Shown: positions 5,119-42,379 of the stretch, piece after piece | How positions within the stretch are numbered: the stretch's first letter is position 1 | Layout of the letters: each line of letters starts with the position of its first letter | DNA from: Microscillaceae bacterium | Lineage (GTDB): Bacteria; Bacteroidota; Bacteroidia; Cytophagales; Microscillaceae | Direction of reading: 5' to 3' | Length of the DNA stretch: 46,469 nucleotides | Assembly (NCBI GenBank): GCA_011390205.1 | Contig: JAABSX010000031.1 | Span: forward strand, 1-46,469 | Position numbers and translations under genes: made by a program | The notes under the pieces: model-generated | Seen by the model: the letters and a program-made list of their open reading frames with translations, nothing else | Told to the model about the DNA's origin: nothing | Databases searched by the model: none

Positions 5119-5228
5119 AGTACTAAAATACTGAAAATCAAATATCTTAGCCCAAAAAAACAAAATCATTGATTGATAGACACAGGTAAAAAACTAATTT
5201 TAAATTGAAAATACCCGAAATAAAGCCA

Positions 5229-7165: not shown

Positions 7166-7292
7166 GTGTCATAGGCCTCACATAAACCCAAGTAGCCAAA
7201 TTATTTATGGCTCTAGGCTTCCGTAACATAAGAAGTATGTAGGTGTATTCTAAACGTAAAAAAATTAATAAATAAGTTATCTAAAATAAAAA

Positions 7293-9169: not shown

Positions 9170-9201
9170 AAAAGTTAATCACACCATTTACCCATAAAAA
9201 A

Positions 9202-9726
9202 ATGCTGCAAGCCAAACCTATCTACCAAGACATAGAAGCACTTATCAAAGGCTACCTCCAAAAGTTAGCCATTTATACAAATGTGCAGTTTGAGCAAAAA
9301 ACCAGCCCTGAGACTTGGTCACTGGGGCAGATGTATGAGCACCTTATCACCAGTAGCTCTTTTTTTAGATACCAAATAAAACTTTGCCTAAGCCAACAAA
9401 AAGGACAGCTAGGCGGAGAGAAAAATTCCACAGGGGAGAATATGTATCAATACGGCTCTTTCCCTCCCATCAAAATCAAAATCCCAGAAGCATGGAAAGG
9501 ACCAGAACCTAGTGCAAAGCCCAAGGAAGCCTATCACGCATTGCTCCAAAAAGAACTAGACAGCCTGTGCGAGTTGGTAGATATCATCCAAGATGATGCA
9601 GGTGAATACAAAACCATGCACGCCGTCTGCGGCATGCTCAATGCCCTAGAATGGTTCAAAATGGCAGAAATGCACTTAAAGCACCATCTCACACAAGCCA
9701 AAGAACTAGAAAACCAAACCAGCTAA
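9202..9726 (+). CDS. DinB-fold family protein
   Basis: A 174-residue protein of the DinB/YfiT-like four-helix-bundle superfamily, many members of which bind a divalent metal through three histidines and act as thiol-dependent transferases. The first metal-site motif is WSLGQMYEHL (His47). The C-terminal helix has HLKHH, giving the second and third ligands (His158 and His162). The substrate is not predictable. It lies 32 bp after rdgB and 43 bp before the 929-residue membrane protein, in the same direction, so it is probably co-transcribed. No signal peptide is seen, so it is cytoplasmic. Confidence 0.78.
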   Translation: MLQAKPIYQDIEALIKGYLQKLAIYTNVQFEQKTSPETWSLGQMYEHLITSSSFFRYQIKLCLSQQKGQLGGEKNSTGENMYQYGSFPPIKIKIPEAWKGPEPSAKPKEAYHALLQKELDSLCELVDIIQDDAGEYKTMHAVCGMLNALEWFKMAEMHLKHHLTQAKELENQTS

Positions 9727-17927: not shown

Positions 17928-20900
17928 CTATCTTTTGATGATTTTGATAACGTAGTTTTTGTCCTTGGTAAAGAATCTCACCAGATACTGCCCTGCGGCT
18001 GCTTTGTTGAGGCTTCTTTCTAAGATACTTTCAAGTGCTTTGCGTTCTTCTTGTGCTTCTATCACCAGCTGTCCCTTCATATCAAGGACCTGCATCATTA
18101 TCTTACCTTGCGCATCTATCTCTGCGGAAGCCTCTATTTTAATTGGAGATAGTCCGTCATAAGGGTTTGGATAGATACGCATCGTAGCCTCACTGCCTTC
18201 TGCTTTGATGTATATGACATCACTCAATGCACTGTCTCCATTTTTGTCTATCTGCTTCAATCGGTAGTAAGCACTTTCTGAGGCATCATTATCTATGTAA
18301 GCATAGTTAAGCACTTGGATAGAATTGCCTGCACCATCTACGAACCCAACCGTGGTGAAGTCGGTAGCGTTTTGGCTTTTCTGAATCTCAAAACCTACAT
18401 TATCTTCTTCTGAGGCTGTAGCCCATATCAGTTGTGTACGGTCTGCGTCTAGCCTTCTTCCTTCAAAAGAAAGCAAACGCACTGGCAGGCTGACCCCATC
18501 CCCTGCGATGATTACCTGACTAAACCCTGTGATACCACCAAAAGCAATGTCATCTCCAGTGATGTTGCTTGCCGCAAAGTTACTTGTCCAGCCTAAGTGG
18601 TCATTCTCTCCTCTTTTGTAAAGTGTGTAATCTGATGGATTGACACTAAGCATAAATTGGCTGTCTAGTGTAAACACAAACTCCATGGGGTCTAATCCTG
18701 TATCACTCCCGTAGTTATTGATTACCCAATAATCAGGTGTCTTGCCTTTGCCAGGTGCGGGGTCATCTCCTGAGGGGGTAAGCCCTATGATTTTGGTGAT
18801 GACAATCTCCCCTGCTGGGTGATTTGCCCCAAAATTGATGCTAAACCCAGTCTGACCGAATGTTACTGAACCATTACCTTGGCTGTTTGCTCTAAACGAT
18901 ACCCCTCCACCTACAGGTACTGATGCTGTACTGCGTGGTACTTCTAGATTGGTATTGGTGATTGTAGCCACAAAGCCATCCACAAAATCACTGGCGATAG
19001 CTCCAATACTTTCATTAAATTGGAGATAAGCAAGCAATCCAATTTCATTTCCTTTTTTCGTAAGGTGTCTATTCTCACGGATTTGCTCTTGTGTACATGC
19101 TTCTGCCCAGATACTGACCTCGTCTATCTGTCCATTGAAGTTGAGATTGGGTACTTCGGCATTGGCACCTATCCATACAGGAGCGTCATTTAGGGTAGGA
19201 GTGCCTGTTACATTTTTCTGTCCTTCTGGTATTCCATCTACATACAGAACCATCTCTGTGCCACTGTAGGTAGCTGCGATATGGTGCCATTTACCATCAT
19301 TGATACTGCTTGTGCTTAGTACATTATCCACTCCCTCAATGATAAACTGCACTTGGTTGGTACTACCAAATCTCTGTAATCTCCAAGCGGTATTTCCCTT
19401 AGTAATAATGGCTTGGTTATTTTTATCAAAAGCAGCTACTTTAAGCCAAAGCTCTAGGCTGAATTTATTTTCAAAGTCAAAGTACTCTTCTCTGTTGAGG
19501 GCTGCATAATCATCTACGCCATCTAATTCCAGTAAATTACCTGGTGTGCTATTGGTCGTTTTCAACAATCTTGCACCAGCAGCAGCACCATTATTGATGG
19601 GATAGGCTACGGCATCTAAGGTTATTTGCTTGAGTTCAGCATCTATCAGATTTCCTTCTGAGGCGTTCTCTGCTATGTCATAAGTCAGCCAGAATTGATT
19701 TACACCTGCCTGCAAGGTGTAGTTAAGCCCTGTGATGGTAAAATCTCCACTGGGGTTATCTGTGAATCCGAGTATCTGCCCTCCTTTTAATGTAGGGGAG
19801 TCTGTTTGGTACAGTCTGGCACGGAGTATATCACTGAGTGTGCTTGTGCCATTTGTACTCAATGTAATTTGCTGAAGTTCTTGCCCAGCAGTGGCCGTAA
19901 TCTGCACAGACAAAATTGCTTTGTTTTTGCCTCCTGCCGTGAGTGCACGTGTATTTTGAGCTACTTGTACTGTTACTAGCCCCCTTACTGCGAGTGTAAA
20001 CTCTTGGGAGACACTCTGCCCCTGCGAGTCTGTAGCACGCACTATGATATCAATATCCCCTATGTCTGAAGCACTTGCTGTGCCTGAGAATCTGCGATTT
20101 GAGGGTGTAAACGTAAGCCATGCGGGTAGAGGATCTCCGTTGCTGAGTGTAGCACTGAGGGTCAATACGGGGTCATCTCCATCTAAGAAGGCAAAGCTAG
20201 AGATTTGATAATTGTACGCCTGCCCTTGATTTACAATCTGATTAGGGATGACTTGATTGACAATAGGCGGCACATTGACGGGTGCTTCGTAGGGTACAAC
20301 CTCTATTGCTGAAATCATTGGGTTTTGAACCAATCCTTTCAAGAAATCAATGTTTACGAAGCCGTCTTGTACATCAACAATGAACTCTCTTGTGATGGCA
20401 ATGTTCATACCTCCTGCTTCCGCAAAGACATCAAAGTTAGTCAGTTTATGCTCGCCCTCTATGTCCACATTAAATATGCGTGAACCTACTGCTACTGTAC
20501 CATTGTGATTAAATAACTCTGCAAAGTGTAACACTACTTGATACATTCCATTGGTAACAGGAATGGCATAGTTAAAATTACCATCTCGCCAACGTTGTCT
20601 TTGGTATAGTTGGTTATTAGCGCTGTTCGTAATATTATTGCTCGAGTTGGAAGTATTAGAAGGTGTACTAAAATGAGTATCAGCTATAAATACATTTCCA
20701 TTATTGTCAGTAAATGGAAGTGTATGCCCTGCTTGGATTCTCAGTGTAGTAGGGCAATTAGGCTCTGAGACCACCGTAAAGTTCTGTATTACGGAGCAGT
20801 TATTGGCATCAAAAATCTCTACTGAATAATCTCCTGCAGCTAGATTTTCAAGAATGACTGTCCCCTGTACAGGATTTCCATTCCAAAAGACGCTGTAAGG

Positions 20901-23900
20901 TGCAGTACCACCCGTGATATTTTGGACTTGGGCAGTCCCGTTGTTTCCTCCTTCACAGCTTACACCTGTGAGATTAATATCAAAAGTGATGGCACTTGGA
21001 TTTTCGGCAACAGTAAAATTGGCCTCTGACTCACAGGCACTGGCTACATCTTCTTTCACATAGATGGTATATTCTCCTGGGAGTAGATTGCTAAATGTTG
21101 GTGAGGTTTGGTAATTTCCAAACTTGCCTAGTTTGTAAAGTACAGGGTTTGTATTTCCTACTGCTGCTACCTGTATAGAGCCATTGGACTGGCTACATTC
21201 AGCATTGGTACTGCTCACAAGCTGCAGAGTGATAGGGCTGGCATTGTTAAATTGGAATATCTCAATGCCTGCTAGGCTAGGTCTATCTACGATAGGGTTA
21301 AAGCGCAGATCTAGTACACCATCAGTTACAGTTACATTGAAATCTTTGACAATGGCAGATTTTTCACCTATTTCATTGAAGGCATCAAAACCCTCTATAA
21401 CCCTTTGCTCCTCTATGAATATATCATTGACGCGGCTGTTGATACTCTTCCAAAAGATTTCTGCAAAGTGTAGCCTCACGGTATAATCTCCGTTGGTGAG
21501 TGGAATAGCATATTCTATGCGTCTTCCGTTTTGATTTCCTTGCGAAGACATATATTGGTTATACAGTTCATCTCTGTCTGTCAGGGCTACTTTCACGGCA
21601 GGGAATCGGTCTATTTTATAGTCAATTCCTATGACACGGAAGGGCACATCGGATTCCCAAGTTTCTCCAGCAATGTTTACAGGGTTGGTATCTTCTGCAG
21701 CAGCCTTTATTTTGCGGGGTAGCACCGAGGTATTACAAGTAGAGGAGGCAATGCCGTATAAAGGCACACGCATAGGAGAGTCTTCACTGTTGTAATGAAT
21801 GAGCAGTGTTGCTTGTTTTACACCAAATTCTGATGGATTAAAATGCACTTGCATGGTGGTAGCTTCAGCAGGTGTGAGTATAGTTTTGGCTGGTAAATCT
21901 GCAAAAAACTCTCCTCTGTTTTGTCCTACTACCTCTACAAAAGAAATTTCAATATCGGGGTCATCATCTCCTGGGAATATCTGCCCGAGGCTTCTTAGAT
22001 TAAGTACTTTAGTGCTTGGGTTATTCAGGTTTACTTGCCCAAAATCAAGGTCAGATTGTTTTTCGGAGGGGTCATTGGTGATGCCATTTCCTGTGGCAAG
22101 CAATGAGGCATAGCCCGTTCCGAACTCAGGGCGGACATTGGTGATTAAGAATACATTGTCATTGTAGTCAAAGTTAGCATTCCCAGATAAGTAATCATTT
22201 GCCAAAACAAAAGCAAAAGGTACAATCTCTCCTTTTGAGTTTCTGAGCTTCCAGATACGAGTTCCCACAGTTGGTGCGTCGTTATTAGGATTCGCATCAT
22301 TGAATGTAGTATTGGTATTAGGCCAATTCAGGAATGGGTTGGTAGCATCATTTCCACCAAGAGTTACGTTGAATCTACCATTAGGATTAAATTCTACCTC
22401 AGCAGGTTGCCCAAGTGTTCCTTGATTCGCGGCATTGACAGTTTTACTTCTTCTTGGTAGTAGCGTCTGCGAATCTTCCCCAATGTGTATAGTTCTCAGA
22501 GTACCTTTATTACCAACATTACCTCCATTAGTTTCTGGATTATTCTCTTGTGTCCAGCTTCTAGCACCACCATCACAGCAGCCGTGGTAAGCAGCCAGCT
22601 GCCTTATGTTTACAGGCTTGTTAGGGTCTGCACGTAAGAAGTTATTGGTATAAATCTCATCACCAGCCACCGAGAAATCATCACCAGCCTTAAAGTTAGG
22701 GCTTGGGAATGCAATATCTATCGTCAATCCGAAGGCTTCTAATATTTCACTTGCCATAGGTTCACCTCTACCCTCTCCTTCTCGCTGCCATAGCCCACGT
22801 AGCCTTACTTCTTTGTAGGGGGTTTCGTCATCATTAGAAATGATGGCAAGTGTTTCGTGCAATACTTTGATGCCATTGCTACGTGGGTTGGGCGGATTAA
22901 GTGCAATAAACCTCAGCCCTATGTCCAAGAACTGATTACTTGAAATATTCAGTGGCAGGTTACTAACATTATAAGGAACTCCGTTGATGGTTTCTATTTG
23001 CCAGTAATCAGAATTGGAAAGAATGAGATCAAAAATTCTGAGGGCTTCACTTCCTCTGTTATTGACACGCAGTGTTACGAAATCATGGTACTCAGCCGTG
23101 CCACCACTTGATTGCCTCCATCCTTCTTCTTGGATGCGATGAAAAGAAAGTTCATCGTTTTCAGGAAATTTATCCCTGTTTTCAAGTACCATTTTGGTGT
23201 TATTGAGAGGTACTTGTTCTACGCTAAAATTATAAGAAGGAGTTTGGGTAATGTTTCCGTTTCCATCTGTTACTCTGAATAGAATGCTATATGTTCCAGA
23301 CTCATCTACGATAAGAGAGTTGGTATAAATCTGCCAAGAAACACCATTGTCTAGGCTAAACTCTGTACTTGCAATGCCACTTCCACCTTGGTCACTGGAC
23401 AATGCTCTTACGACTACTTTATTTTTATAAAGGTCTTGCGCAAGTTCTACACCATCAAAACTAATTTGAACAGTAGGGGGAATATCGTCATTGGCTGCAT
23501 TGGTGGGTCTTATCCAGATATATTGAATCTTTGTATTGACTCCTGTCTGCCCATCTATGGTTAGTTTTCCATCGGTTACTTCTACAGTGCGCTGTGTAAG
23601 CAAGTTTGCATTGGCATTCCACATTTGGTGGTTAAAATCCATAAAGTATTTGCCTTCTACTCTAATGGTATGGTGGCTGTCAAAAAATAGAGTTTCACCA
23701 ACAGAAATAGCTACATCATATAAGCCATTAGGGAGAGTCATTTCCCAGTTTGCGCGTTCTGTAATGCTAAGCTGAAAGTGATTGAGAGTTTGTAACACTC
23801 CATTTCCTCCTCTTCGACGTGCTTGTGCAGTATTATTGTAAGGGCTACCGTCTTGAGTACTTATCCATCCGTATTCATAGTTATTGCCTCCAAATGTACG

Positions 23901-26900
23901 TGTACCAAAAGCATCACCATAATCAGGTATATAGCCTGTGGGTACAGGTACAGGATTTCCATTAAATAAGGTTGGTTGGAAGTTAATCCTATATGCCCAG
24001 TTTCCATTAGGCACTGCCATTACTTTGAGCAATACAGTCATTTCTGCTTGTGTGAAGCCTGGTGCATTCGCCATTACTTTGGCCGTGTATAAGCCTGGTG
24101 CTAATCCGTTTGCATTGATGTTATAAGGTTGAGCAACACCGTCTGCAGGGTTATTCGGCAAGATAAGCCAAGGTGTTCCTGAGGTTTTGCTAAGGTTTAG
24201 CAGGGCTGTATTAACCGAACCAGTGGCAGTAGCCGTCTGTGCTGTGGCTGTTCCTCCTTGGTTAAGGTTAAATCGGATAATTTGTTTGTCAAATGTAAGC
24301 GCCTGAGGCAATACTTCTAAATTTATGTCAAGAAGGGCTGACTGATAGCCCGCAAAGCTTGCACGAATACGTCCTTTATATGAGCCTACTGCCAGATTGC
24401 TTGCATCTACTGTTAGCGTAATATCTCCCACCCCTGTGGTAGCTGGCACAGAAAGCCATGTGCTTCCAGAAAGCACTGAGAGGGTAACATTGCTAGGTGA
24501 GCCTGCAGTGGCTGTCAATGTGGTATTGAAGGTATTGATACCTGAGCCGAAAAGAACTACTTCATTGATACTGGTGTTGGCAAACCCTAGTCTTACATCT
24601 GCCAAGCCTGGCGTACCTATTCTGATGTAACTAATCTTGGTGTTTGCATTTCCTGTGGGTGATACGTTCAGTGTGCCATCTGCGACATTGACCTCAGCAA
24701 TGGCTCTCGAGAATCCAAATGTACTCTGTTGTGTAGTGGGGTCTGATATGCTAAAAAGTTGTGGATAATTTAATACCTCTACGCCTTCTACATTTACTCT
24801 GTGGTGGCTGTCATAAAACACATCTCCTGAGACTACTTCTACATAATAATTATTATTAGGCACATTGATTGCCCAGTTTGCCCAGTTTGATTGATTGTTG
24901 GTTCTTTGAAACTGGCTCAGCGTTTTGACTTCTTGCCCTACTCCTGCTGCAGTTCTTAGTCGGGTAGATGTTGTATTCTCTTTTGGTGCCCCGTTTGTGG
25001 GGTTTACCCAGCCAAACTCATAATTTTGCCCATTTTTGGTTTGGGTCTGAAAACCAAGCCCTGTATCTGAGATAAACCCTGATGGAACAGCATCTCCATC
25101 TCGCTGAAAGTTAATGCTGTATGTCCAGTTAATGAGTGGCAGCACCGAAAGCCTGATTGTCATTTCGCCATTGTTGTACCCATTGGCAGCAACTGTTACT
25201 GTAGCTTCATATTCTCCAAATGGCAAGGCATCAGACTGAATATCAAAAGCAAAAGCAGGGATGTTTGAGTCATAAGTAAAGACATCTCCCCAGTTTACAT
25301 TTCTTGGGGAAAGCCAAGTAGGGCTCAGCCCTGTGCCGTTGTCTATGGCTGTAAAGGTGAGATCAGCCGAAGTAGCCCCTGGTAAGTTGAGCACAGTCCA
25401 GATGTCTGAATTACTCCCTACTTCTACAATGACATCGTGGCTGTCAGGTATCAGTGTCATAGAAGGCAAAGCTGAGGCTACATGGGGCTTCACATTTTTG
25501 ACCAACATTACGACATCTTGGTAATCAAATCCTGTGGTGTTTTCCTCAAAAGCTACAATGTATTGATTGGGTACAATCTGCCCTGCTGTATTTTTCATAG
25601 CATATACCCTCACATGATGAGGGATAGCACCACTAAAAGTATTGAGGGCATCCTCACTGTATATCTTTCTGTTAGAGAAGAAAGGCCATTCGGTATAAAA
25701 TCCAAAAGGTGTGCTCAAATCTAAATCAAAACTATTAGCACCAGTAGCAATCGGATTAATATTTTGTGCATTGTTGGTAGGCGTATTGGCTACGCTTATC
25801 AAGGCTTGCTCTGTAGCAGTATTTCCTGACTGATACCAGCCCAGATTCACCACAGGGCTGGTAGAGGTAGGGCCATATACTGCCAACAATTCTATTTCTA
25901 CGGGCATATCAGAAGACTTTTCAAATTTTTGTATGCTTAGTTCCTCTCCTAACAAAGAACCGTCTTGTACGGAGCTATGCAGTATGTTGGTGCTAGGGTT
26001 ATCATCTCCTACATTAATGGGAATATTATACACATTTAAGATCGCCTGCAAGGAGGGCTCATTGTTGCCTCCATAGCCCTGTGTACCTAATCCTCTGAGG
26101 TTGATGGTCGTATTAAAATCTACGTTTCCTAAATGATTACTGGTAATGACAAGGTTTGCAAGGTTTGTACCTAAATCTGCAGCTTCGGTAGCATTGAATG
26201 CCACAGGCAAACTGATACTGCTGCCTGCTGGAATCGTAAAGGCTGTCTGAGCATTGGGCAAGCTAAATTTAGTTGCTTTGCTTCCAGTAAAAGAGATATT
26301 GCTAATCTCAAGGTTTAGTTCGCCTTGATTGCTAATCAAAAGATTCTGTACACTAGGGTTTGTATCTGTGATAGGATTACTGATTCTCAATACATTCTCT
26401 ACCTCTATCTCAGCGGCAGCTGCTACTGGCACATCTGCTTTGAGCAAAATAAGTTGCTGGCTTACACCTGCATTTCGATCATATTGAGCAATGTAGATAT
26501 TGCCTGTGTTGATGTCTTCTGTGAGTTCTAAGGGGTCTATGAAGCCTGTAAAGCCTGGTATATTTGTGTAAGATTCTATAATATCCCCAGTAACATTGTC
26601 AGGCTCTAATACAAGAATATCATTTTGCCCACTGAATCTGACCACAAGTAGTTTGTTTTTAAGAAGCCCTCCAAAGGCGTTACTTCGGTATTCAATCGCA
26701 CCATTTGGGGATTTATTAAACCCAAAATCATAGGCGGGTGCTACGTAGGCTGGGTCAGCCACAACAGAAGCTGGATATTTGGCTACATCTATGTGTGCAT
26801 CAGTTTGGCCTGGTAATCCATTGTAAGAAGCTCCTCCGTGGTTAAGCACAAAATACCCTTGATAAGGATTGGGGTGTCCGTGAAAACTTCCTTGTGAAGC

Positions 26901-29900
26901 CTTGAAAAGCCAATCTTTTTGGGTTTCTCCTCCACGTACTGCAGGCACATTCGGGAAGGAAGGATACTCATAAAAAGTACCATCTGCTCTTCTCACCCTG
27001 CTGCCATTGGCTATGGTCAGATAATTATCAGTAGAAGGTGTATTGGGTGAAGTAATATTGTTACCAGCAGTTCCATTGGTAGGGGCGTATAGTGTCCCGT
27101 TGCTGTGCCAGACGAGGTCATACGCATTTCGGATACCTGCCGAGAAGATACTCAGTGGAGAATTAGTAGCGTAGGGGTTATATGTACCATCAGACATGGT
27201 AATGGAAGAGGAAGATGCATTGTTAATCACACCGATATTGCTTGTAGTATAAGCATTGAGCGGCCACTGTCCTTCTGGAAGTTTGGCCAAATCAAGTCTT
27301 AGAATCGTGCCTGCGAGAAGGCTTTCTATACGATTTCCCCAAGCAGGGTCGGGGTCTCCACCGGCTGTATTGCTGCCTTGGCTGACGTATAAAGCTCCGT
27401 CTGGCCCTCTGACAATGCTGTTGGTAAGGTGATCTTTGGTAGAGCGAGGCAGATGAATGACCACATCTTTGACAGTGGCCAGGTTAGGTCCGCTTAGTTG
27501 GGTGATTTTTCCATCCCAATTAGGTCCATCCGTAAGCACAGCGGCATTGTGTGTAACATAAGCGATGAGGTTATTGGCTGTGGCATTTTTATCAAAGGTA
27601 AATCCAATAATAAGTCGGGGGTTTGTGTCTGTAACACCTGTTTCGGGGTTTGGTGAGGCAGCAAGTACAGGAGTCAATACTTCTAGGTTGGAGAGTGTTC
27701 CATCCGTGTTGATTGTCCATCTTTTGATTTGCCCTGCGGTATTGCTTGCATAAAGTTTGCCATCTGGGCCCACCTCGAGGCTTGTAAAGAAATCATCCAA
27801 ACCTGTGCCCAATGCAGCACCTGATACCTTGGTAAATGATACTCCAGGTAGTGTAGCTCCGCTTCCAGTATTGGTTGTGCCAGTAGTAAAGCTAGATACA
27901 AAATCTTGGAATGTAATACGGTCATTTAAATCTCCAGCTCTGTTTGCCTCCACTCCTTGTATCTTGAGTCTGTAGGTAGTTCCAGGATTGAGTGCAGTGT
28001 TGGGAGTCAATGTAATAGCATCTCCTCCTCCAGTATCATTGGAGTTAGAAGGAACAAGCAGCTCTGTAGAGCCAGTTACTTCGTATAGATTTACATTGCC
28101 CGCAACAGTAGTACTCGTAAGTTCAAAATTGGCTGGAGTATTGACTAATACTGTAATCTGAAAACCATTGATATTGACACCCAATGAGCCATTTGGAGGG
28201 TTAGGACCAGAGAAGAAGGCATCAGTGGCTAGTGGTGGATTGACTGTGAGTGTAATCTCTAAGGTAGCAGGCTCATAATCTTGTGCAACTGCTGTTACGG
28301 ATGCAGTGTAAGTGCCTGCTGCCAATCCTGCAGTATTAATTTCAAAATCAAAATTGGTATCTGTATTAAATACAAGATTGTTAATGGGGTTTCCGTTAAT
28401 CGTGAGCCAAGTAATAGGGTCAAAAGTAACCGCATCTAGTGCATTTAGTGTAAGTCCTAAATTTGTGCTGGCATCATTGGCACGGACGGTATTGCTGAGT
28501 GTGCCATTCGTGCCTAGTGAAAGCGAAACATTGTTGTTTGTAACTTGCTCAAAGAACAATGCTGCGGGCTGTGGCCCTGAAATCTCTATGGCAGAGATGA
28601 TGGCATTGTTGGTAATAGATGTAAAAGTAATGTTAAGAACTCCATCATTTACTACGATACCAGAAAAAGTCTTGACAGATGCCGTGGCAGGGCCTACATC
28701 TGCATTGATGTCATAATTACTGAGTGAGCCTTGGCCTCCTTCAATATCTACATTAAATACCCTATTGTCTGTGCCACCTGTGCCACCGCCTGGTGCACCA
28801 AAAAAAGGCTCTACCATGAGTAATTTTACGTTGTAGGACCCATTGGCCAACACAGGAATATTGTAACTAAAAGGAGCGCCTGCATCTGCAAAACGATAGT
28901 TCAAAAAGAGATTATCTTCACCTGTGCCTGCTACAGCAAAACTTTTACTACCTATTATTCCTCCCGTAGAGTATGTATCTGCCGTCCAGATATTGTTTTC
29001 AGCATCAGTATAGTTAGCGCCGCCCGCATTGATTCGGGTAGTGCCAATGGGAGGATCACTTGGCTCTACACCACTCAATACATATACATAATCTTGATAG
29101 TCACCATTGTTGGCATCTTCAAAACAGATTAAATACTGGTTAGGGACGGGGTTTCCTTGACGGTCTTTGAGCGGATAAGTACGTACACGGTGCTGACTGC
29201 CTGTACCTGGTGCTGTGCTAGGTGGGGTACTTGGTATATTGAGTGCATCCTCTGTGAAAGAACTACGCCCAAAATATGCAGAGGTGATATATACACCAAA
29301 GTCTGCCGTGCCAGGGTCAAATTGTATGCTTCCACTTTCTAACTCAGGTAATAAAGACTGATGCTCGGGTTTCTGCCCTGACAACACAAAGGTTTGATTC
29401 AATACTGGAGTTCCGTTGTCATTGGTGTACCAACCTGTAGGCAGCGGCTCTACGGGTGAATAGCGTGCTACTGGAGTGAGTTTAACAATGCTATTGCCTG
29501 CTTTTTGAAATCTCTGAACTTGTACCTCATCACCAATAAGGGTACTGCTCATATTGATAAGCCCATTTTCATAGGCTTGATCGCTTCCATCAAAAGCAAA
29601 AGGTAATAGGGTAAGTCCTGACCAGCCTACATTGATGTCATAACCTAATGCTTGTACCACTTGTGCTAAAGTTGGCTCAGCATATCCTCCAAAGCCCTGT
29701 GTACTTATTCCAAATAGATTTACAGTGAGGCTTGAGCTGTTGGTGTCATTGCTTTCAAAAGTAACCGAGCCATTGAGCAGCCCTAAATTGCCTGCACCAG
29801 GTGCGAAGGTAATCTCAAAACTAAGAGATTGTCCTTCGGTCAGTATTTCTGGAAAACTATGACTAGAAGTCAGGCTGTAAGCAGCACCCAGTACATTGGC

Positions 29901-30263
29901 CGCCGTGATGCTCAGGTCTGCAGTGCCTATATTCTGAACTGTAATCGTTTTTGATTCACTGGTATGTTCTTGTAAAGAGGGATCTGAAGCACTGGGGTAT
30001 GCCTGATCTACTGCACTGAAAATCAACTCATCTGCACTCAAATCAATCTGTGGATCAAACACAACTTCTTGATTGTCTTGTGTGATTTGTATGTTTTGAA
30101 GATATTTTGATTTCTTGTCTGGTAAATTAAATAAATCAGTGTGAATCAGACTGGCATATGTAGTAATCGAGCATAGAGTCAAAATGATGGCTATACCCAA
30201 TAAACGAAATCTACTTTTGGGAATGATGCGAGTTTGTGTGTCAGTTTGGCTAAAGTAAAGCAT
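17928..30263 (-). CDS. Giant T9SS-sorted multidomain surface/secreted protein
   Basis: A single intact 4111-residue frame. A membrane/signal segment lies at about 20-40. Approximate domain order: ASH/choice-of-anchor-D 65-190; DUF4114-like 191-401; malectin 409-561; BACON-like 564-674; SbsA/Big_5-type Ig 679-793; glucose/sorbosone-dehydrogenase-like propeller 809-1276; ASH 1281-1395; DUF4114-like 1396-1600; BACON 1601-1710; malectin-like 1713-1885; two BACON 1886-2085; malectin-like 2086-2255; Ig-like 2258-2348; ASH-like 2349-2500; DUF4114-like 2503-2711; ASH 2738-2850; malectin 2854-3006; two SprB-like repeats 3007-3168; malectin 3176-3326; cadherin-like/He_PIG 3333-3425; BNR-associated-like 3426-3570; LamG 3575-3765; FN3-like region; C-terminal type A sorting domain (MRIYPNPYDG to VIKIIKR, about 4025-4111). 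The N-terminus is long for a Sec signal, with about 18 polar residues before the hydrophobic stretch. It is probably exported by Sec then T9SS and bound to the surface. The many carbohydrate-type modules suggest polysaccharide binding or adhesion. Catalysis by the propeller is unproven. Confidence 0.93.
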   Translation of the reverse strand: MLYFSQTDTQTRIIPKSRFRLLGIAIILTLCSITTYASLIHTDLFNLPDKKSKYLQNIQITQDNQEVVFDPQIDLSADELIFSAVDQAYPSASDPSLQEHTSESKTITVQNIGTADLSITAANVLGAAYSLTSSHSFPEILTEGQSLSFEITFAPGAGNLGLLNGSVTFESNDTNSSSLTVNLFGISTQGFGGYAEPTLAQVVQALGYDINVGWSGLTLLPFAFDGSDQAYENGLINMSSTLIGDEVQVQRFQKAGNSIVKLTPVARYSPVEPLPTGWYTNDNGTPVLNQTFVLSGQKPEHQSLLPELESGSIQFDPGTADFGVYITSAYFGRSSFTEDALNIPSTPPSTAPGTGSQHRVRTYPLKDRQGNPVPNQYLICFEDANNGDYQDYVYVLSGVEPSDPPIGTTRINAGGANYTDAENNIWTADTYSTGGIIGSKSFAVAGTGEDNLFLNYRFADAGAPFSYNIPVLANGSYNVKLLMVEPFFGAPGGGTGGTDNRVFNVDIEGGQGSLSNYDINADVGPATASVKTFSGIVVNDGVLNITFTSITNNAIISAIEISGPQPAALFFEQVTNNNVSLSLGTNGTLSNTVRANDASTNLGLTLNALDAVTFDPITWLTINGNPINNLVFNTDTNFDFEINTAGLAAGTYTASVTAVAQDYEPATLEITLTVNPPLATDAFFSGPNPPNGSLGVNINGFQITVLVNTPANFELTSTTVAGNVNLYEVTGSTELLVPSNSNDTGGGDAITLTPNTALNPGTTYRLKIQGVEANRAGDLNDRITFQDFVSSFTTGTTNTGSGATLPGVSFTKVSGAALGTGLDDFFTSLEVGPDGKLYASNTAGQIKRWTINTDGTLSNLEVLTPVLAASPNPETGVTDTNPRLIIGFTFDKNATANNLIAYVTHNAAVLTDGPNWDGKITQLSGPNLATVKDVVIHLPRSTKDHLTNSIVRGPDGALYVSQGSNTAGGDPDPAWGNRIESLLAGTILRLDLAKLPEGQWPLNAYTTSNIGVINNASSSSITMSDGTYNPYATNSPLSIFSAGIRNAYDLVWHSNGTLYAPTNGTAGNNITSPNTPSTDNYLTIANGSRVRRADGTFYEYPSFPNVPAVRGGETQKDWLFKASQGSFHGHPNPYQGYFVLNHGGASYNGLPGQTDAHIDVAKYPASVVADPAYVAPAYDFGFNKSPNGAIEYRSNAFGGLLKNKLLVVRFSGQNDILVLEPDNVTGDIIESYTNIPGFTGFIDPLELTEDINTGNIYIAQYDRNAGVSQQLILLKADVPVAAAAEIEVENVLRISNPITDTNPSVQNLLISNQGELNLEISNISFTGSKATKFSLPNAQTAFTIPAGSSISLPVAFNATEAADLGTNLANLVITSNHLGNVDFNTTINLRGLGTQGYGGNNEPSLQAILNVYNIPINVGDDNPSTNILHSSVQDGSLLGEELSIQKFEKSSDMPVEIELLAVYGPTSTSPVVNLGWYQSGNTATEQALISVANTPTNNAQNINPIATGANSFDLDLSTPFGFYTEWPFFSNRKIYSEDALNTFSGAIPHHVRVYAMKNTAGQIVPNQYIVAFEENTTGFDYQDVVMLVKNVKPHVASALPSMTLIPDSHDVIVEVGSNSDIWTVLNLPGATSADLTFTAIDNGTGLSPTWLSPRNVNWGDVFTYDSNIPAFAFDIQSDALPFGEYEATVTVAANGYNNGEMTIRLSVLPLINWTYSINFQRDGDAVPSGFISDTGLGFQTQTKNGQNYEFGWVNPTNGAPKENTTSTRLRTAAGVGQEVKTLSQFQRTNNQSNWANWAINVPNNNYYVEVVSGDVFYDSHHRVNVEGVEVLNYPQLFSISDPTTQQSTFGFSRAIAEVNVADGTLNVSPTGNANTKISYIRIGTPGLADVRLGFANTSINEVVLFGSGINTFNTTLTATAGSPSNVTLSVLSGSTWLSVPATTGVGDITLTVDASNLAVGSYKGRIRASFAGYQSALLDINLEVLPQALTFDKQIIRFNLNQGGTATAQTATATGSVNTALLNLSKTSGTPWLILPNNPADGVAQPYNINANGLAPGLYTAKVMANAPGFTQAEMTVLLKVMAVPNGNWAYRINFQPTLFNGNPVPVPTGYIPDYGDAFGTRTFGGNNYEYGWISTQDGSPYNNTAQARRRGGNGVLQTLNHFQLSITERANWEMTLPNGLYDVAISVGETLFFDSHHTIRVEGKYFMDFNHQMWNANANLLTQRTVEVTDGKLTIDGQTGVNTKIQYIWIRPTNAANDDIPPTVQISFDGVELAQDLYKNKVVVRALSSDQGGSGIASTEFSLDNGVSWQIYTNSLIVDESGTYSILFRVTDGNGNITQTPSYNFSVEQVPLNNTKMVLENRDKFPENDELSFHRIQEEGWRQSSGGTAEYHDFVTLRVNNRGSEALRIFDLILSNSDYWQIETINGVPYNVSNLPLNISSNQFLDIGLRFIALNPPNPRSNGIKVLHETLAIISNDDETPYKEVRLRGLWQREGEGRGEPMASEILEAFGLTIDIAFPSPNFKAGDDFSVAGDEIYTNNFLRADPNKPVNIRQLAAYHGCCDGGARSWTQENNPETNGGNVGNKGTLRTIHIGEDSQTLLPRRSKTVNAANQGTLGQPAEVEFNPNGRFNVTLGGNDATNPFLNWPNTNTTFNDANPNNDAPTVGTRIWKLRNSKGEIVPFAFVLANDYLSGNANFDYNDNVFLITNVRPEFGTGYASLLATGNGITNDPSEKQSDLDFGQVNLNNPSTKVLNLRSLGQIFPGDDDPDIEISFVEVVGQNRGEFFADLPAKTILTPAEATTMQVHFNPSEFGVKQATLLIHYNSEDSPMRVPLYGIASSTCNTSVLPRKIKAAAEDTNPVNIAGETWESDVPFRVIGIDYKIDRFPAVKVALTDRDELYNQYMSSQGNQNGRRIEYAIPLTNGDYTVRLHFAEIFWKSINSRVNDIFIEEQRVIEGFDAFNEIGEKSAIVKDFNVTVTDGVLDLRFNPIVDRPSLAGIEIFQFNNASPITLQLVSSTNAECSQSNGSIQVAAVGNTNPVLYKLGKFGNYQTSPTFSNLLPGEYTIYVKEDVASACESEANFTVAENPSAITFDINLTGVSCEGGNNGTAQVQNITGGTAPYSVFWNGNPVQGTVILENLAAGDYSVEIFDANNCSVIQNFTVVSEPNCPTTLRIQAGHTLPFTDNNGNVFIADTHFSTPSNTSNSSNNITNSANNQLYQRQRWRDGNFNYAIPVTNGMYQVVLHFAELFNHNGTVAVGSRIFNVDIEGEHKLTNFDVFAEAGGMNIAITREFIVDVQDGFVNIDFLKGLVQNPMISAIEVVPYEAPVNVPPIVNQVIPNQIVNQGQAYNYQISSFAFLDGDDPVLTLSATLSNGDPLPAWLTFTPSNRRFSGTASASDIGDIDIIVRATDSQGQSVSQEFTLAVRGLVTVQVAQNTRALTAGGKNKAILSVQITATAGQELQQITLSTNGTSTLSDILRARLYQTDSPTLKGGQILGFTDNPSGDFTITGLNYTLQAGVNQFWLTYDIAENASEGNLIDAELKQITLDAVAYPINNGAAAGARLLKTTNSTPGNLLELDGVDDYAALNREEYFDFENKFSLELWLKVAAFDKNNQAIITKGNTAWRLQRFGSTNQVQFIIEGVDNVLSTSSINDGKWHHIAATYSGTEMVLYVDGIPEGQKNVTGTPTLNDAPVWIGANAEVPNLNFNGQIDEVSIWAEACTQEQIRENRHLTKKGNEIGLLAYLQFNESIGAIASDFVDGFVATITNTNLEVPRSTASVPVGGGVSFRANSQGNGSVTFGQTGFSINFGANHPAGEIVITKIIGLTPSGDDPAPGKGKTPDYWVINNYGSDTGLDPMEFVFTLDSQFMLSVNPSDYTLYKRGENDHLGWTSNFAASNITGDDIAFGGITGFSQVIIAGDGVSLPVRLLSFEGRRLDADRTQLIWATASEEDNVGFEIQKSQNATDFTTVGFVDGAGNSIQVLNYAYIDNDASESAYYRLKQIDKNGDSALSDVIYIKAEGSEATMRIYPNPYDGLSPIKIEASAEIDAQGKIMMQVLDMKGQLVIEAQEERKALESILERSLNKAAAGQYLVRFFTKDKNYVIKIIKR

Positions 30264-38161: not shown

Positions 38162-38187
38162 CCTCCTCTGAAACACTACTGACGAGG
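38162..38187 (-). terminator. Probable terminator of the caspase operon
   Basis: Imperfect hairpin with CCTC (38162-38165) and GAGG (38184-38187) arms plus partial internal pairing, overlapping the stop of the WD40-caspase gene. On the minus strand it is followed by GGCTTTTCTTATTTT, a usable T-rich tract. Confidence 0.45.
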
Positions 38188-39939
38188 ATGAAACACAAAT
38201 TCTCCACCTTCATGCCCTACATCTTTGATGGGGTTGCCGAGTGGGGTTTGGTTACTGTTATTAGCTACGGCGATTTTTACATACTGAATCAGCTCCGATA
38301 CCGTAAACTTACGGTGTGTATTGGTAAGCAAAAACTTCATGAAATAACGTGCAAAGGGACTATTCTCTCCTTCTTTGCCATCAGATACTACCTCAAGGTT
38401 GCCTGAGGTAAGCCCCCAGCGTGAGCTAATACTCTCTACATTTTCTATATAACCCCGCTTTTGCTCGCCAAACAATGCCCCCGAAAAACAAGCATCTGCC
38501 ACTACAAAAGTATGTCTAGTACGGATGGCTTTCAAGAAAGTAAGCAGGCGATTGTTGGGGAAATAATTATTGGTAGAGCTGGTTTCGGCCTCACTGGTTA
38601 CCCAGTAGCCTTCTTCATACGTGGGGTCATAGAAGCCATGCCCTGAGTAATAAATCAGCAGATTGTCCATAGAAGTTACTTTTTTGCGGATTTTTTCTAC
38701 AGTAGCAGCAAGGTAATCATTGTTAAACTCTTCGTCATAGATTTCATAGGTATCTTCTGGCTCAAAGCCATATTTTTCTTGCAACAGATTCTTCACATCT
38801 TTGGCATCTTTGACGGCATTGGGCAGATAGTCCCAGTGCTTGTACTTGCTTACTCCTATGACCAACAAATAATTTTTTGCTTCGGTATTGAGGTCAAAAT
38901 CTAGGTCTATGGCCTGTACTTCTGAAGGCTCATTTTTAGATGTTTGTGTGTTGTTTGCTGCTTGCCCTCTGTTGGGTATGATTTTTAGCGACTCACAGTT
39001 CCAGACCGTAAATTCATTTCCTAAGCTGGCAGAGAGCATAAATTTTCCATTGGCAGAGAACTGCGTACTCATTACGATGGCAGCCGAAGATTCTAAATCT
39101 TGAATTACTTTCTCTGAAGCTACATCCCAAAGGATGAGCTTACCGTCGTGCCCTCCACTCAAGATAAATCTGCTATCGGGGCTGAAGGCCAGGCTTTGAA
39201 CCCAGCCATTGTGTTTTTTGAATATTTTGAGAGGCTCTTTTACTGCAAAACTAGCATCCCAGACCCTGAGGGCTTTGTCATCACTTCCTGTGGCCAAGTA
39301 TTTGCCATCAGGGCTAAAATCAAGGCTGCGCGTTACCTTGCCTACATCTAAGGTATGCAAGATTTGCCCTTGGTTTACATCCCAAATTTTGATGGTTTTG
39401 TCAAGACTAGAAGAGGCTAGTTTTTCTCCGTCGGGGTGAAATGCTACGTGTGTAATTTCTTTTTGATGCCCTGTGAATACCCTGAGGGCTTGTTCTTTCT
39501 GAAAATCCCATATTTTAATCTGATTGCTTTGGTCTGCACTGACTACGTATTCTTCATTGGGGCTAAATGCTACGGAAGTAATGGTGGCACTGTGCCCAGA
39601 CAAGGTTTTGTAAGTATTTCCTGCTTTTACAGACCATACTTTGACTTTTTGGTCTTTTCCTCCTGAGACAAGGTAGCTGCTGTTGGGGCTAAAAGCAAGG
39701 CTGAGTATTTTGTCTTCGTGTCCTTTCAAGATATTGAGTTTTGCACCTGTTTCGGCATCCCAGAGAATGATTTGTGCATCTTCCCCTGTAGTAGCAATGA
39801 TGCGGTTATCAGGGCTAATGGCCGCCTGATAGATTCTTTGCCCTTGTGTATTGATACGCTTCTGGAGAGAAACCTGTGCTAAAGAAAGAGAACTCCCAAC
39901 AAAAATAAAGAAAATGACATAAGTAATAAGAATACGCAT
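38176..39939 (-). CDS. Exported WD40-repeat/caspase (C14) protein
   Basis: A 587-residue protein with a Sec signal peptide (LITYVIFFIFVGSSLSLAQ). Residues about 30-325 contain seven WD40 repeats, each ending in a WD-like dipeptide (ILWD, VKVWS, IKIWD, IKIWD, LRVWD, LILWD, FTVWN), enough to close one seven-bladed propeller. After a polar linker, residues about 355-587 form a caspase/metacaspase domain with LLVIGVSKYKHWDYLPNAVKDA, the catalytic His434 in YYSGHGF and Cys484 in VADACFSGAL. Both catalytic residues are intact. WD40-caspase fusions are known in bacteria, but a signal peptide puts this one outside the cytoplasm. It is the last gene of a four-gene cluster of exported proteins, 15 bp after a beta-barrel gene. 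The substrate and trigger are unknown. Confidence 0.92.
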   Translation of the reverse strand: MRILITYVIFFIFVGSSLSLAQVSLQKRINTQGQRIYQAAISPDNRIIATTGEDAQIILWDAETGAKLNILKGHEDKILSLAFSPNSSYLVSGGKDQKVKVWSVKAGNTYKTLSGHSATITSVAFSPNEEYVVSADQSNQIKIWDFQKEQALRVFTGHQKEITHVAFHPDGEKLASSSLDKTIKIWDVNQGQILHTLDVGKVTRSLDFSPDGKYLATGSDDKALRVWDASFAVKEPLKIFKKHNGWVQSLAFSPDSRFILSGGHDGKLILWDVASEKVIQDLESSAAIVMSTQFSANGKFMLSASLGNEFTVWNCESLKIIPNRGQAANNTQTSKNEPSEVQAIDLDFDLNTEAKNYLLVIGVSKYKHWDYLPNAVKDAKDVKNLLQEKYGFEPEDTYEIYDEEFNNDYLAATVEKIRKKVTSMDNLLIYYSGHGFYDPTYEEGYWVTSEAETSSTNNYFPNNRLLTFLKAIRTRHTFVVADACFSGALFGEQKRGYIENVESISSRWGLTSGNLEVVSDGKEGENSPFARYFMKFLLTNTHRKFTVSELIQYVKIAVANNSNQTPLGNPIKDVGHEGGEFVFHPRQ

Positions 39940-39954
39940 AAGCCTTGGGGATAT

Positions 39955-40692
39955 TTATTCGATGAATGATTTAGATTTGAAAATGCTCAAACGAGTACCT
40001 ACTGAAAACGCCAAGTACTGACTATCTCTACGCAAATCAGGCTGATTGTTTACAAAAATATAAGTTAAATCACCTTGTGCAAACAATTTAACGCTTTCGG
40101 AAATCTTAAAATCTACCCCTACCCCTGTAGTAAAGCCTGCCCTCACGATGTACTCTATGCTTTTGGCATTGAAGCGAAGCACACTGACAAGGTCTTCACT
40201 GTTAGATAAAAGTCTTTGTCTAGGAGGTGCTTCGGCACTGATGACATTGACATTAAACTCTGCCCAGATGTAGGGGATGATGCGCTTGTTGGCAAAAAAC
40301 TTATACTGTCCGTTGATTCCGAGGCCATTGCTGAGATAAAAAGCATTGAACTCCGATAAATCAAAAGCAACAGGAAAATTATCAATGCTGCGAGTTGGGT
40401 CTGTAGCTGGCAAGGGGTCTTTCCAGCTACTGAGCAATACTGAACGAATCGTGGCACCTACAGAGATGTGTGATTTGATATTGTATTGTAGCCCTACATT
40501 GAGCTGTGTGCCTATGTCATAATTAGAAAACATATAAGGCACACCGTCGGGGTCTATGGGAGAGATATTACGCCCTAGAGGCAGTGCTGCCCCACCTCCA
40601 AAACTGAAAGTGAGTTTTTTGTTAAACTGTGCTTGGGCAGTGTAGCCCACAGATAAGCACAAAATGAGAAGTATATATTTTGACACATTCAT
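39955..40692 (-). CDS. PorT-like small outer-membrane beta-barrel protein
   Basis: A 245-residue protein with a signal peptide cleaved after YTAQAQ, then about eight to ten alternating strands (for example KLTFSFGGGAALPLG, LNVGLQYNIKSHISVGATI, AGFTTGVGVDFKI, LAFSVGTRLSIFKS), the pattern of PorT/OmpA-type barrels. No peptidoglycan-binding OmpA domain follows. It lies 15 bp upstream of the WD40-caspase gene and 9 bp downstream of the lipocalin-like lipoprotein gene, so it is almost certainly in the same transcript. It may be the outer-membrane anchor or channel for the caspase protein, which is inference from context only. Confidence 0.78.
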   Translation of the reverse strand: MNVSKYILLILCLSVGYTAQAQFNKKLTFSFGGGAALPLGRNISPIDPDGVPYMFSNYDIGTQLNVGLQYNIKSHISVGATIRSVLLSSWKDPLPATDPTRSIDNFPVAFDLSEFNAFYLSNGLGINGQYKFFANKRIIPYIWAEFNVNVISAEAPPRQRLLSNSEDLVSVLRFNAKSIEYIVRAGFTTGVGVDFKISESVKLFAQGDLTYIFVNNQPDLRRDSQYLAFSVGTRLSIFKSKSFIE

Positions 40693-40701
40693 ATTTTTTA
40701 A

Positions 40702-41202
40702 TTATAAAACAGATTCAAACTGATACAACAATACATCTGTCCAAGCACCATAATCATCTTGTAGTACTTGAATTTCTATTTCTAGCACATCCGTACTGAT
40801 AGAGCGGATAATTCCTTTTCGTAGCAAGTCCTCATTACTTATACCTGCACGCTCAGGGGGCAGATTAATGTAAATGGTGTTTTGATTTAGCGATCCTAGA
40901 AACCAGTTGAGCTGTTCGCTACTTTCTGCTATATCACACCTCAAAAAACCCGTGCTTATGACTAGAGTCCCTGAGAGGTTATTGCCCTGTGAGAATGTCC
41001 AGATGTCATCGGTTTCGCAGTATTCTATATTTTCAAGTGTATTGTATTTTTTACTGACAAGCCTCCAAGATTTTTGGCTGCGATTGGTGAGTAATTCGTT
41101 GATGCTTGCTATGTCATCTACTGATGAACAAGCTACCATGAGAAGCAGAAAGCTACACATCAGTAAATATGACAGCACCCTAAGATTAAATGTATGTTGC
41201 AT
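40702..41202 (-). CDS. Lipocalin-like lipoprotein
   Basis: A 166-residue lipoprotein (LLLMVAC lipobox, lipidated Cys near residue 25). The body has the pattern of small Bacteroidota lipocalin-like lipoproteins: a KSWRLVSKKYNT opening strand, ETDDIWTFSQGNNLSG, LNWFLGSLNQNTIYI and a closing ISTDVLEIEIQVLQ strand pair. Two cysteines (in EYCETDD and LRCDIAE) could form a disulfide across the barrel. Ligand binding is typical of this fold, but the ligand is not predictable. It sits between the Ig-like lipoprotein gene (37 bp) and the barrel gene (9 bp). Confidence 0.72.
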   Translation of the reverse strand: MQHTFNLRVLSYLLMCSFLLLMVACSSVDDIASINELLTNRSQKSWRLVSKKYNTLENIEYCETDDIWTFSQGNNLSGTLVISTGFLRCDIAESSEQLNWFLGSLNQNTIYINLPPERAGISNEDLLRKGIIRSISTDVLEIEIQVLQDDYGAWTDVLLYQFESVL

Positions 41203-41239
41203 TGTATAAAGTTTTGATTTGTACCAAGTGATTATTGCC

Positions 41240-42058
41240 TTATTGCCATTCTACAAAAAAGTCTATGACGATTGGATTGCCCTCTTCATTAAATTCATTG
41301 ACGATTCTGACTCTGTTTGGGTAGGGTGTCTGAGCGATTGAGAGTGCTTCTATCAAATCAGCCTCAGTGGTGTATAATTGATTTCTCTCGGCATCCAATA
41401 GTTCAAGTCCAAAAAGAGATTCGGAGAGTAAATCACTGGCAGGGATTTCATTCAAGCTAAAATCAGCAGAGGCATAATCGGCTTCACGCTGTAGTATCCC
41501 GCCACCAAATGTAGCTCTAAAAAAACTAATCGGTCCATAGGAGTTATAAGGAGCATCATCGTAAGATAATTCCATATAAATATCTGGGGCTGTTTCTATA
41601 TTAGGGTTATCATCACTGGCAGTGGTGGGGTAGTCCATAATCCAGACTTCCGAAACCACAAAACCGCTGGGCTGTGAGGGGCGCCGCTCTGACAATGTGG
41701 TAAAGTAATAACTCACAGAACCCTCTACAAGGGGCGGGCCTATAGTGTGGTCATCTCTATTGTCATAAAATAACTGCCCATCATCATAGGTAGCAAGTAC
41801 ATAGTAAATTTCTGAGCCTATGTCTTCAAAATAAGCTATTCCTTGAGCATTGCTGGTAACAGAAGCCACAGACTGCACTCTAGTTTCTAAATCTAAACGA
41901 GAGCGATAGAGCGTAACTGTAGCATTGGGCTGTGGGTTGCCAGCTTCATCTCTGACTTCTACCAATAGCTCAGTCCTTAATGTAAACTCAGAGTTTCCAT
42001 CACAGCCGAATAACAATAGGCAGATAGTTGCCAATATTATTGAGTAAGATTTTATCAT
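41240..42058 (-). CDS. Lipoprotein with carboxypeptidase-regulatory-like domain
   Basis: A 272-residue lipoprotein (LLLFGC lipobox, Cys19). Residues about 30-100 form a transthyretin/CarboxypepD_reg-like beta domain (VEVRDEAGNPQPNATVTLYRS, then NAQGIAYFEDI). Residues about 135-240 form a second beta-rich part with a PDIYMELSYDD motif, an acidic PD-x-Y-type strand reminiscent of C2-like modules (weak). It is highly acidic. It is the first gene of the four-gene exported cluster, with a -7 box TACATTTG 22 bp before its ATG. It is possibly a surface-exposed sensor or binding protein. Confidence 0.75.
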   Translation of the reverse strand: MIKSYSIILATICLLLFGCDGNSEFTLRTELLVEVRDEAGNPQPNATVTLYRSRLDLETRVQSVASVTSNAQGIAYFEDIGSEIYYVLATYDDGQLFYDNRDDHTIGPPLVEGSVSYYFTTLSERRPSQPSGFVVSEVWIMDYPTTASDDNPNIETAPDIYMELSYDDAPYNSYGPISFFRATFGGGILQREADYASADFSLNEIPASDLLSESLFGLELLDAERNQLYTTEADLIEALSIAQTPYPNRVRIVNEFNEEGNPIVIDFFVEWQ

Positions 42059-42320
42059 AAAAGTAATATATTAATAAAACAAATGTATGTCTTTATTTGC
42101 GTAATGGAAAGAAAACACAGAATTTTTTAAGTAAAAATGAGGAGAAATTTAATTTTTATAGGTTTAGGCACCTATTTCGTATGGTCTTACTGCTCAGAAG
42201 CCTTCGGACATTCAGTAAAATGAAAGGCTGAGAGCCTTATTATAAATGTAATAAAACAAACAAAATACACTATTTAATCAAAATACAGGCTGCCCTAGAA
42301 GCGGCCAAGGTACAAAAAAA
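42059..42320. other. Leader and promoter region of the caspase operon
   Basis: Non-coding. Besides the -7 box at 42080-42087 it holds a perfect AAGGCT-GAG-AGCCTT hairpin (42224-42238). No reading frame or RNA gene was recognised. Confidence 0.5.
42080..42087 (-). promoter_or_regulatory. -7 box of the caspase operon
   Basis: TACATTTG on the minus strand is a perfect TAnnTTTG and ends 22 bp before the ATG of the first lipoprotein. It implies a very short leader. A clean -33 TTG is not evident. Confidence 0.5.
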
Positions 42321-42347
42321 GGATACTTTCTTTTTGAGAAAGTATCC
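42321..42347 (-). terminator. Strong intrinsic terminator after the RRM gene
   Basis: A perfect 11-bp stem, GGATACTTTCT and AGAAAGTATCC, with a 5-nt loop. On the minus strand it is followed by seven T residues (42320-42314). It lies 33 bp past the stop of the RRM gene. Confidence 0.9.
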
Positions 42348-42379
42348 CTTAATAAATAAGATAGAAAATTCGACCTTAA

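Follow-up and report, generated by a model that had tools for sequence, protein, structure and literature searches.

On positions 1 to 46,469 of contig JAABSX010000031.1 (assembly GCA_011390205.1) from a Microscillaceae bacterium (Bacteroidota, Cytophagales), a stretch of 46,469 nucleotides called the window in the following, a minus-strand cluster of four genes encodes an Ig-like lipoprotein (gene 1), a lipocalin-like lipoprotein (gene 2), a small outer-membrane beta-barrel (gene 3) and a caspase fused to a WD40 propeller (gene 4, WD40-caspase). The results of this study support an operon-like unit of exported products which is conserved beyond the family of this bacterium. In addition, barrels of the gene 3 family encoded directly before WD40-caspases carry a short basic tail (consensus KSKSL) at their C-terminus, which may be a docking or cleavage site for the protease. 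The first-pass annotation of the window had described four minus-strand genes separated by 37, 9 and 15 bp, with the last product bearing seven WD40 repeats and intact His434 and Cys484 residues, all of which was confirmed in the sequence. Its claim that every product bears a lipobox or a Sec leader was borne out by eye, with Sec-type leaders ending in AQAQ and SLAQ and lipoboxes LFGC and VAC. Genes were called as longest open reading frames (ORFs) without a start-site model, and the features are collected in Table 1. Genomes are denoted by G numbers, with G000 being the window's own genome (4.5 Mb, 124 contigs).

Table 1. Features of the four-gene cluster and C-terminal ends of tail-bearing barrels (positions refer to the window).
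Feature	Position	Strand	Basis or sequence
Gene 1, 272-aa lipoprotein (LFGC lipobox), N-terminal Ig-like/CarboxypepD_reg-like domain	41240-42058	-	ORF, weak Pfam, homologues
Gene 2, 166-aa lipocalin-like lipoprotein (VACS lipobox; KSW and C..DD.W.F motifs)	40702-41202	-	ORF, homologues, hhalign
Gene 3, 245-aa small outer-membrane beta-barrel, Sec leader	39955-40692	-	OMP_b-brl, Opa60 profile match, homologues
Gene 4, 587-aa WD40-caspase, Sec-type leader, without type IX secretion (T9SS) sorting domain	38176-39939	-	ORF, Pfam
Seven-bladed WD40 propeller, gene 4 residues 21-315	38995-39879	-	WD40 E 7.5e-71; extent from profile
Caspase (Peptidase_C14) domain, gene 4 residues ~355-584	38188-38877	-	PF00656
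Catalytic His434 codon	38638-38640	-	in YYSGHG; invariant in caspase alignments
Catalytic Cys484 codon	38488-38490	-	in VADACFSG; invariant in caspase alignments, Asp482 too
Basic tail KSKSF, gene 3 residues 239-243, after last barrel strand, then IE; consensus KSKSL	39964-39978	-
Terminator-like hairpin and T run, behind the RRM gene, between RRM gene and cluster	42318-42350	-	pattern match
Barrel end, window			FKSKSFIE
Barrel end, G023			VKSKTL
Barrel end, G078			FKKRSIL
Barrel end, G126			VKSKSIL
Barrel end, G029 C36			FRSKSLY
Barrel end, G100			GQSKSLY
Barrel end, G124 and G147			FKSKSL
Barrel end, G173			LKSKSL
Barrel end, G149			LQKKKLY (read behind assembly gap)

The four-gene order, which the first-pass annotation had proposed to look for in other genomes, was found complete in G023, a member of another family. 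A search with the single barrel sequence in 57 genomes, the own genome included, matched four of them, namely the own genome, G023 (E = 1.8e-19) and two weak ones; nothing in the remaining 14 genomes of the window's family matched this sequence. Locus L042 of G023 holds all four genes in identical order with gaps of 1, 4 and 1 bp, encoding a 327-aa lipoprotein, a 167-aa lipoprotein, a 235-aa barrel and a 698-aa WD40-caspase, and the BLASTP E-values against the window are 6e-12, 1e-6, 4e-25 and 1e-43 for genes 1 to 4 (gene 1 with 28% identity over 140 aa). When 390 genomes of the order were searched with a profile built from these two barrels, 18 had a match at E up to 1e-3, with G078 (E = 5.5e-43) and G126 (E = 4.3e-36) as new strong matches. 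The G126 cluster is cut by the contig end, where a gene-1-like end (76-residue piece, E = 0.034) is followed by genes 2, 3 and 4, and G078 contains genes 2, 3 and 4 without gene 1. A gene 2 profile run over the same 390 genomes was strong in the own genome, G023, G078 and G126, which match by construction as its four rows come from these loci, and weak (E up to 0.01) in 76 further genomes. The distribution of the cluster is patchy, with one genome in each of four families. A barrel profile run over 395 genomes of the phylum matched 16 of them, with no second tail-bearing barrel among the loci returned, and a contig scan with the single caspase sequence yielded at least one distant locus.

Among nine aligned barrels, eight of which are linked to WD40 genes and the ninth of which (G029 C70) was added with its tail already known, KSKSL is the most conserved five-column stretch (majority 0.82 versus a mean of 0.42). 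A pattern derived from the tail fits 10 of 829 distinct complete ORFs, all of them barrels of this set and the tenth being that of G029 C70; the G149 barrel lies outside this count owing to its assembly gap. The caspase-free barrels of G075, G033, G048 (two) and G062 stop, by eye, at the strand. The association of the tail with WD40 genes was counted for the 22 distinct barrel ORFs matched by the two-barrel profile, with its two seeds excluded and the caspase unused. A WD40 gene lies within 1.5 kb of four of the five barrels with the tail and of none of the 17 without it (p = 7e-4), five of these 17 being truncated where the stretch ends and several being long fused proteins or doubtful barrels. 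If only complete barrels of 200-300 aa are counted as tail-less, while the G029 barrel of 338 aa stays among those with the tail, the counts are 4/5 versus 0/8 (p = 0.007). A nine-row barrel profile matched 78 of 291 genomes, and its 11 best loci correspond to the tail-bearing barrels already known, of which ten directly precede a WD40 gene. The tail pattern does not recur in the remaining loci that were returned or whose stretches were fetched. Weak matches to this profile occur in some genomes of the window's family; the ones inspected, in G006, G007 and G014, are different barrels that have no caspase. The idea that KSKSL followed by a stop is a general tag was rejected after counting it in seven genomes, as it occurred nearly as often as a reversed-pattern control (32 versus 29 in the own genome, 24 versus 16 in G029) and below the control in G078 and others.

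Two related small barrels (L089, 6357-8651; L093, 5250-7418) are fusion proteins with SdrD/CarboxypepD-like domains and, at the C-terminus, a SPOR domain, and such SPOR-fused barrels may hold peptidoglycan directly. At the position of the tail, the chain of the fused relatives runs on into extensions ending in a SPOR domain, which by analogy places the barrel tail in the periplasm.

More distant barrel relatives lie directly before WD40 genes in G029 (C36), G100, G149, G124, G147 and G173. Five of these six genes encode WD40-caspases with both catalytic motifs, and the gene of G100 ends at the contig end before the protease domain. Both catalytic motifs, with His and with Cys, are preserved in the caspase of the window as well as in the eight other barrel-linked caspases that reach the domain. 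In a census of 65 caspase genes, a non-random set drawn from the loci of our own searches, a barrel of the gene 3 family lies directly upstream of 9 of 28 WD40-caspases and of none of 37 other caspases; the corresponding p-value of 2e-4 is only a guide, because the loci are self-selected, sister genomes (G124/G147 and G003/G012) are included and seven of the nine loci contributed rows to the barrel model. The proteins encoded directly upstream of the WD40-caspases of G173 C5 and G097 look, by eye only, like other barrels.

The other genes of the cluster recur in varying combinations. An Ig-like lipoprotein precedes the barrel in G029, G100 and G149, and gene 1 joins the Ig-lipoproteins of related loci in hhalign at 98.6%, with the leader in the aligned part and a control at 29%, as the gene 3 barrel joins the caspase-free barrels at 99.5%, a value obtained without a control. 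Lipoprotein and barrel without a caspase were found in G033, G062 and a second G126 locus, where cargo was not tested, and they occur together with a protein carrying a type IX sorting domain, again without an adjacent caspase, in G075, at two G048 loci and at G029 C70. Caspase relatives without any of the three neighbours exist in G123 (47%), as a second copy in G023 (37%), and in G003 and G012 (36%). The first-pass annotation had suggested that the four products could form an envelope-stress, kin-recognition or maturation device and had named such solitary caspases as evidence against it. An obligatory device is indeed not supported, owing to these caspases and to the barrel/Ig-lipoprotein pairs without a caspase, but they do not count against the linkage itself, which is conserved in G023, G126 and G078. 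A protein of ~270-280 aa with a leader follows the WD40-caspases of G126 (L085, 3252-4049), G123 (L166, 6706-7539) and G023 (L043, 5914-6759), its gene lying immediately downstream in G123 and G023; these proteins are 30-45% identical to each other, the G123 copy is without a Pfam match, and they represent a second conserved neighbour of the caspase. In locus L186 (G051 C55), several WD40 matches, two of which contain an in-frame stop, form a run on a contig that also holds a short caspase gene.

A possible reading, to which we give a tentative preference, is that a periplasmic WD40-caspase is held at, or cuts, the outer-membrane barrel through the tail of the latter. The four genes would form one operon, expressed as a single transcript, for an outer-membrane module, in which the barrel would reside in the outer membrane, its basic tail at the C-terminus would project into the periplasm, and the Ig-like and lipocalin-like lipoproteins would be membrane-anchored partners of the barrel. 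The caspase would be exported by Sec and remain in the periplasm, which is its likely place in view of its Sec-type leader and of the absence of a sorting domain of the type searched for. Either the propeller or the protease domain would then meet the tail, and the state of the barrel (ligand- or cargo-bound, or misassembled) would control cleavage after a lysine or arginine, in the tail or in a partner, with the outcome that a cell-surface protein would be processed or removed on demand. Short peptides are common ligands of WD40 propellers. Orthocaspases are described, in the relevant passages of PMC6426788, as cutting after positively charged residues. Whether the tail serves as dock or as substrate, it would make the barrel the address of the protease. 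Of this proposal, the sequence itself shows the genes and their order, their conservation, the export-type leaders, the intact catalytic residues, and the tail with its WD40 association.

Several observations weigh against a contact between caspase and tail. On a tree of 61 of the 65 census domains (weak or short domains were left out) the barrel-linked caspases fall into three distant parts, and the label for barrel linkage needs seven changes if two other barrels are counted as linked. At least five of these changes are forced by well-supported branches, so that the linkage has repeatedly arisen or been lost. On the propeller tree, from which four proteins of >900 aa were left out and to which the G100 propeller was added, the label needs at least four changes, and a propeller acting as tail reader would hence lack shared ancestry; co-inheritance of propeller and barrel was dismissed, as the linked proteins do not group together on this tree. 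The net charge of the propeller, considered as a sign of tail binding, shows no difference between linked and unlinked proteins. Regarding the tail itself, 9 of the 11 tail barrels are rows of the very nine-row profile that ranked them, and the WD40-caspase of the tail-bearing G029 C70 is not adjacent to the barrel, being encoded ~5 kb off on the other strand. Basic ends without a caspase in the stretch read were seen in G006 and G014 (GKKRTLLGF) and in G172 (FYKSKE). A weak 363-aa barrel match of G285 (L239, C23), which ends in FSKGGRGK and lacks the tail pattern, has a WD40 gene within 1.5 kb. Finally, the tail could be inherited inside one barrel subfamily for membrane insertion. The barrels of G006 and G014 (L245, 5101-5811; L246, 4892-5620; L247, 5007-5690) come from other genomes of the window's family, and one G006 copy ends in GKKRNLLSF.

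Nearly as probable as contact through the tail is that the four genes are co-expressed envelope genes without a physical complex, with the caspase being a general periplasmic protease often located near outer-membrane genes and the tail being a trait of the barrel subfamily. The modularity of the cluster, the several label changes on both trees, the one tail barrel without an adjacent caspase, the missing charge signal of the propeller and the other basic ends without caspases all fit this explanation. What it accounts for less readily is that one barrel family recurs beside caspases from three distant parts of the tree and that the tail tracks this linkage.

Somewhat further behind, and to be considered doubtful, is a role in the maturation of type IX cargo, in which the caspase would trim or license a secreted surface protein in a PorU-like manner, with barrel and lipoprotein forming a cargo-specific surface platform. 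A gene for a protein with a type IX sorting domain directly precedes the related Ig-lipoprotein/barrel genes at two loci each of G029 and G048 and in G100 and G075, and one lies upstream of the barrel in G173; the incomplete upstream gene of G149 had no Pfam match. The own genome contains 39 sorting-domain matches, 36 of them over the cut-off, and its closest stand-alone caspase with a leader is followed by type IX cargo. This caspase is a 319-aa protein with 51% to the caspase domain; in its locus (L048, G000 C66, region 4479-9214) it is flanked by a protein that matches DUF5683 weakly and by the sorting-domain protein. One sorting-domain protein lies 8 kb from the cluster in the window. In a search of the own genome with PF18962, which did not cover type B sorting domains, the sole match on the window's contig was a 4111-aa ORF (17928-30263, minus strand), not the caspase; this giant and probably surface-located protein also has malectin and laminin-G domains and a weak SprB-repeat match. 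However, there is no cargo directly beside the window cluster, none was recognised beside the cluster in G023 or G078, where the neighbours were scanned in part, and related pairs exist without a caspase. As the caspase is without a sorting domain, it should moreover not reach the cell surface where PorU works. Taken together, contact of the caspase with the tail remains the tentative first choice, with co-regulation nearly equal to it and cargo maturation in third place.

That the exported caspase serves a kin-recognition, defence or programmed cell death device is highly improbable: the PADLOC model 'caspase' matches it at E = 1e-13 over a partial length and a repeat-type model matches the WD40-caspase as well, but the other three proteins have no PADLOC match and hence no known defence partner, all four products bear export-type leaders, and what the related loci contain are genes for outer-membrane proteins and type IX cargo, with no defence gene seen among neighbours that were not systematically scanned. 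Type IX cargo is encoded repeatedly next to related barrels, which speaks for a role concerning cell-surface proteins or sensing rather than defence.

Bacterial caspase-like proteases are mostly discussed as intracellular agents of defence or cell death. The first-pass annotation had contrasted the exported caspase with usually cytoplasmic ones. That export is exceptional is not supported by this sample: by a simple and crude hydrophobicity criterion, a signal-like N-terminus is present in 51 of 63 complete caspase genes sampled, and for the own genome the count is five of seven. As exported-looking caspases are this common, the contrast with cytoplasmic caspases is weaker in this lineage. Among single-domain metacaspases, passages of PMC3501461 give suspected signal peptides for 46 of 398.

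The assignment of the individual products differs in its firmness. In gene 4, the blades of the propeller end at W60, W102, W144, W186, W227, W271 and W313, and PF00656 (Peptidase_C14) matches at 38245-38868 with E = 3.2e-15 and 57.4 bits versus a curated cut-off of 21.4. An eight-row profile of the caspase domain matches solved metacaspases and MALT1 (best E = 1.8e-9), the DxC motif included; phmmer with the caspase domain alone found nothing among solved structures at E up to 0.01. Asp482 of this motif, which is invariant in the alignment, presumably has a role in the S1 pocket. Behind the labels of barrel and Ig-like protein in the first-pass annotation stand Pfam matches that are weak and below the cut-offs, namely OMP_b-brl on gene 3 (E = 1.1e-4) and CarboxypepD_reg (E = 5e-4) and Big_1 (E = 1e-3) on gene 1. 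In the comparison with small eight-stranded barrels of the Opa/OmpX type, the barrel family profile reaches the solved Opa60 barrel at E = 1.8e-4. Among the Pfam-A matches listed for the window's proteins (E up to 0.1; 25 of 61 families), gene 3 showed OMP_b-brl and Opacity only and no PorP/SprF match, and gene 2 no meaningful family. The lipocalin label of gene 2 has indirect support: its family aligns with 16 lipoproteins at 99.6% in hhalign (unrelated control 20%), and the one of these that was scanned, from relative L100, exceeds the Lipocalin_4 cut-off. Among the gene 2 homologues, the G023 member matched Lipocalin_4 below the cut-off (E = 0.0037), and the G078 and G126 members did not match it. 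Against solved structures, gene 2 profiles had no match and gene 1 profiles one weak match, and single-sequence structure predictions were uninformative (mean pLDDT 29 for the barrel and 41 for the 166-aa lipoprotein). Upstream of gene 1, by 21 bases, lies TACATTTG (42080-42087, minus strand), a candidate promoter element which fits the TAnnTTTG -7 element of Bacteroidota promoters. Terminator-like hairpin patterns number seven in the region versus 3.9 expected in shuffles.

WD40-caspases and metacaspases with possible signal peptides are already known kinds of proteins. According to passages of PMC3501461, WD40 is the commonest partner domain of metacaspases (73 of 671), N-terminal helices were noted as possible signal peptides, and an OmpA domain occurs in 14 metacaspase operons. 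The WD40 metacaspases/orthocaspases described there resemble gene 4 in their C14 domain and WD40 repeats, but those passages mention no operon of Ig-lipoprotein, lipocalin-lipoprotein, barrel and exported WD40-caspase, and no barrel tail. Metacaspases -4, -1 and -9 and the MALT1 paracaspase share the protease domain with gene 4 by profile, but are eukaryotic. To our knowledge, none of them is exported or bears a propeller. The protease PorU belongs, like caspases, to clan CD. The type IX attachment complex PorU/PorZ/PorV/PorQ likewise combines, as far as described in the sections of PMC8545088 used here, a protease, a beta-propeller (PorZ) and barrels at the outer membrane. Both PorZ and PorU have a sorting domain and act at the cell surface (parts of PMC8545088 and PMC11285876), whereas in the window one Sec-leader protein without a sorting domain of the searched type joins propeller and C14 protease. 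For the cargo-anchoring PorP/SprF barrels, passages of PMC9143113 describe a barrel gene beside its specific cargo and a lipoprotein partner, PorE, as is seen in the related loci; PorP/SprF are, however, 14-stranded FadL-type barrels, unlike the 245-aa window barrel with its Opa60-like family profile. In the one open-access library searched, neither the operon nor its recurrence with barrels nor the tail was found, which makes for a weak claim. The barrel tail directly before these caspases appears to be a new observation.

In a wider form, which is rather unlikely at present, barrel and surface lipoproteins would signal through the periplasmic KSKSL tail to the periplasmic WD40-caspase, in a receptor-protease pathway that several families would employ with varying partners and with type IX cargo. 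If true, this would be a new caspase pathway of the Bacteroidota outside the cytoplasm. An exported caspase is here tied by gene order, over several families, to a barrel with a short conserved tail. This offers a defined partner and a candidate site for docking or cleavage, by which the function of caspases exported by bacteria can be tested directly.

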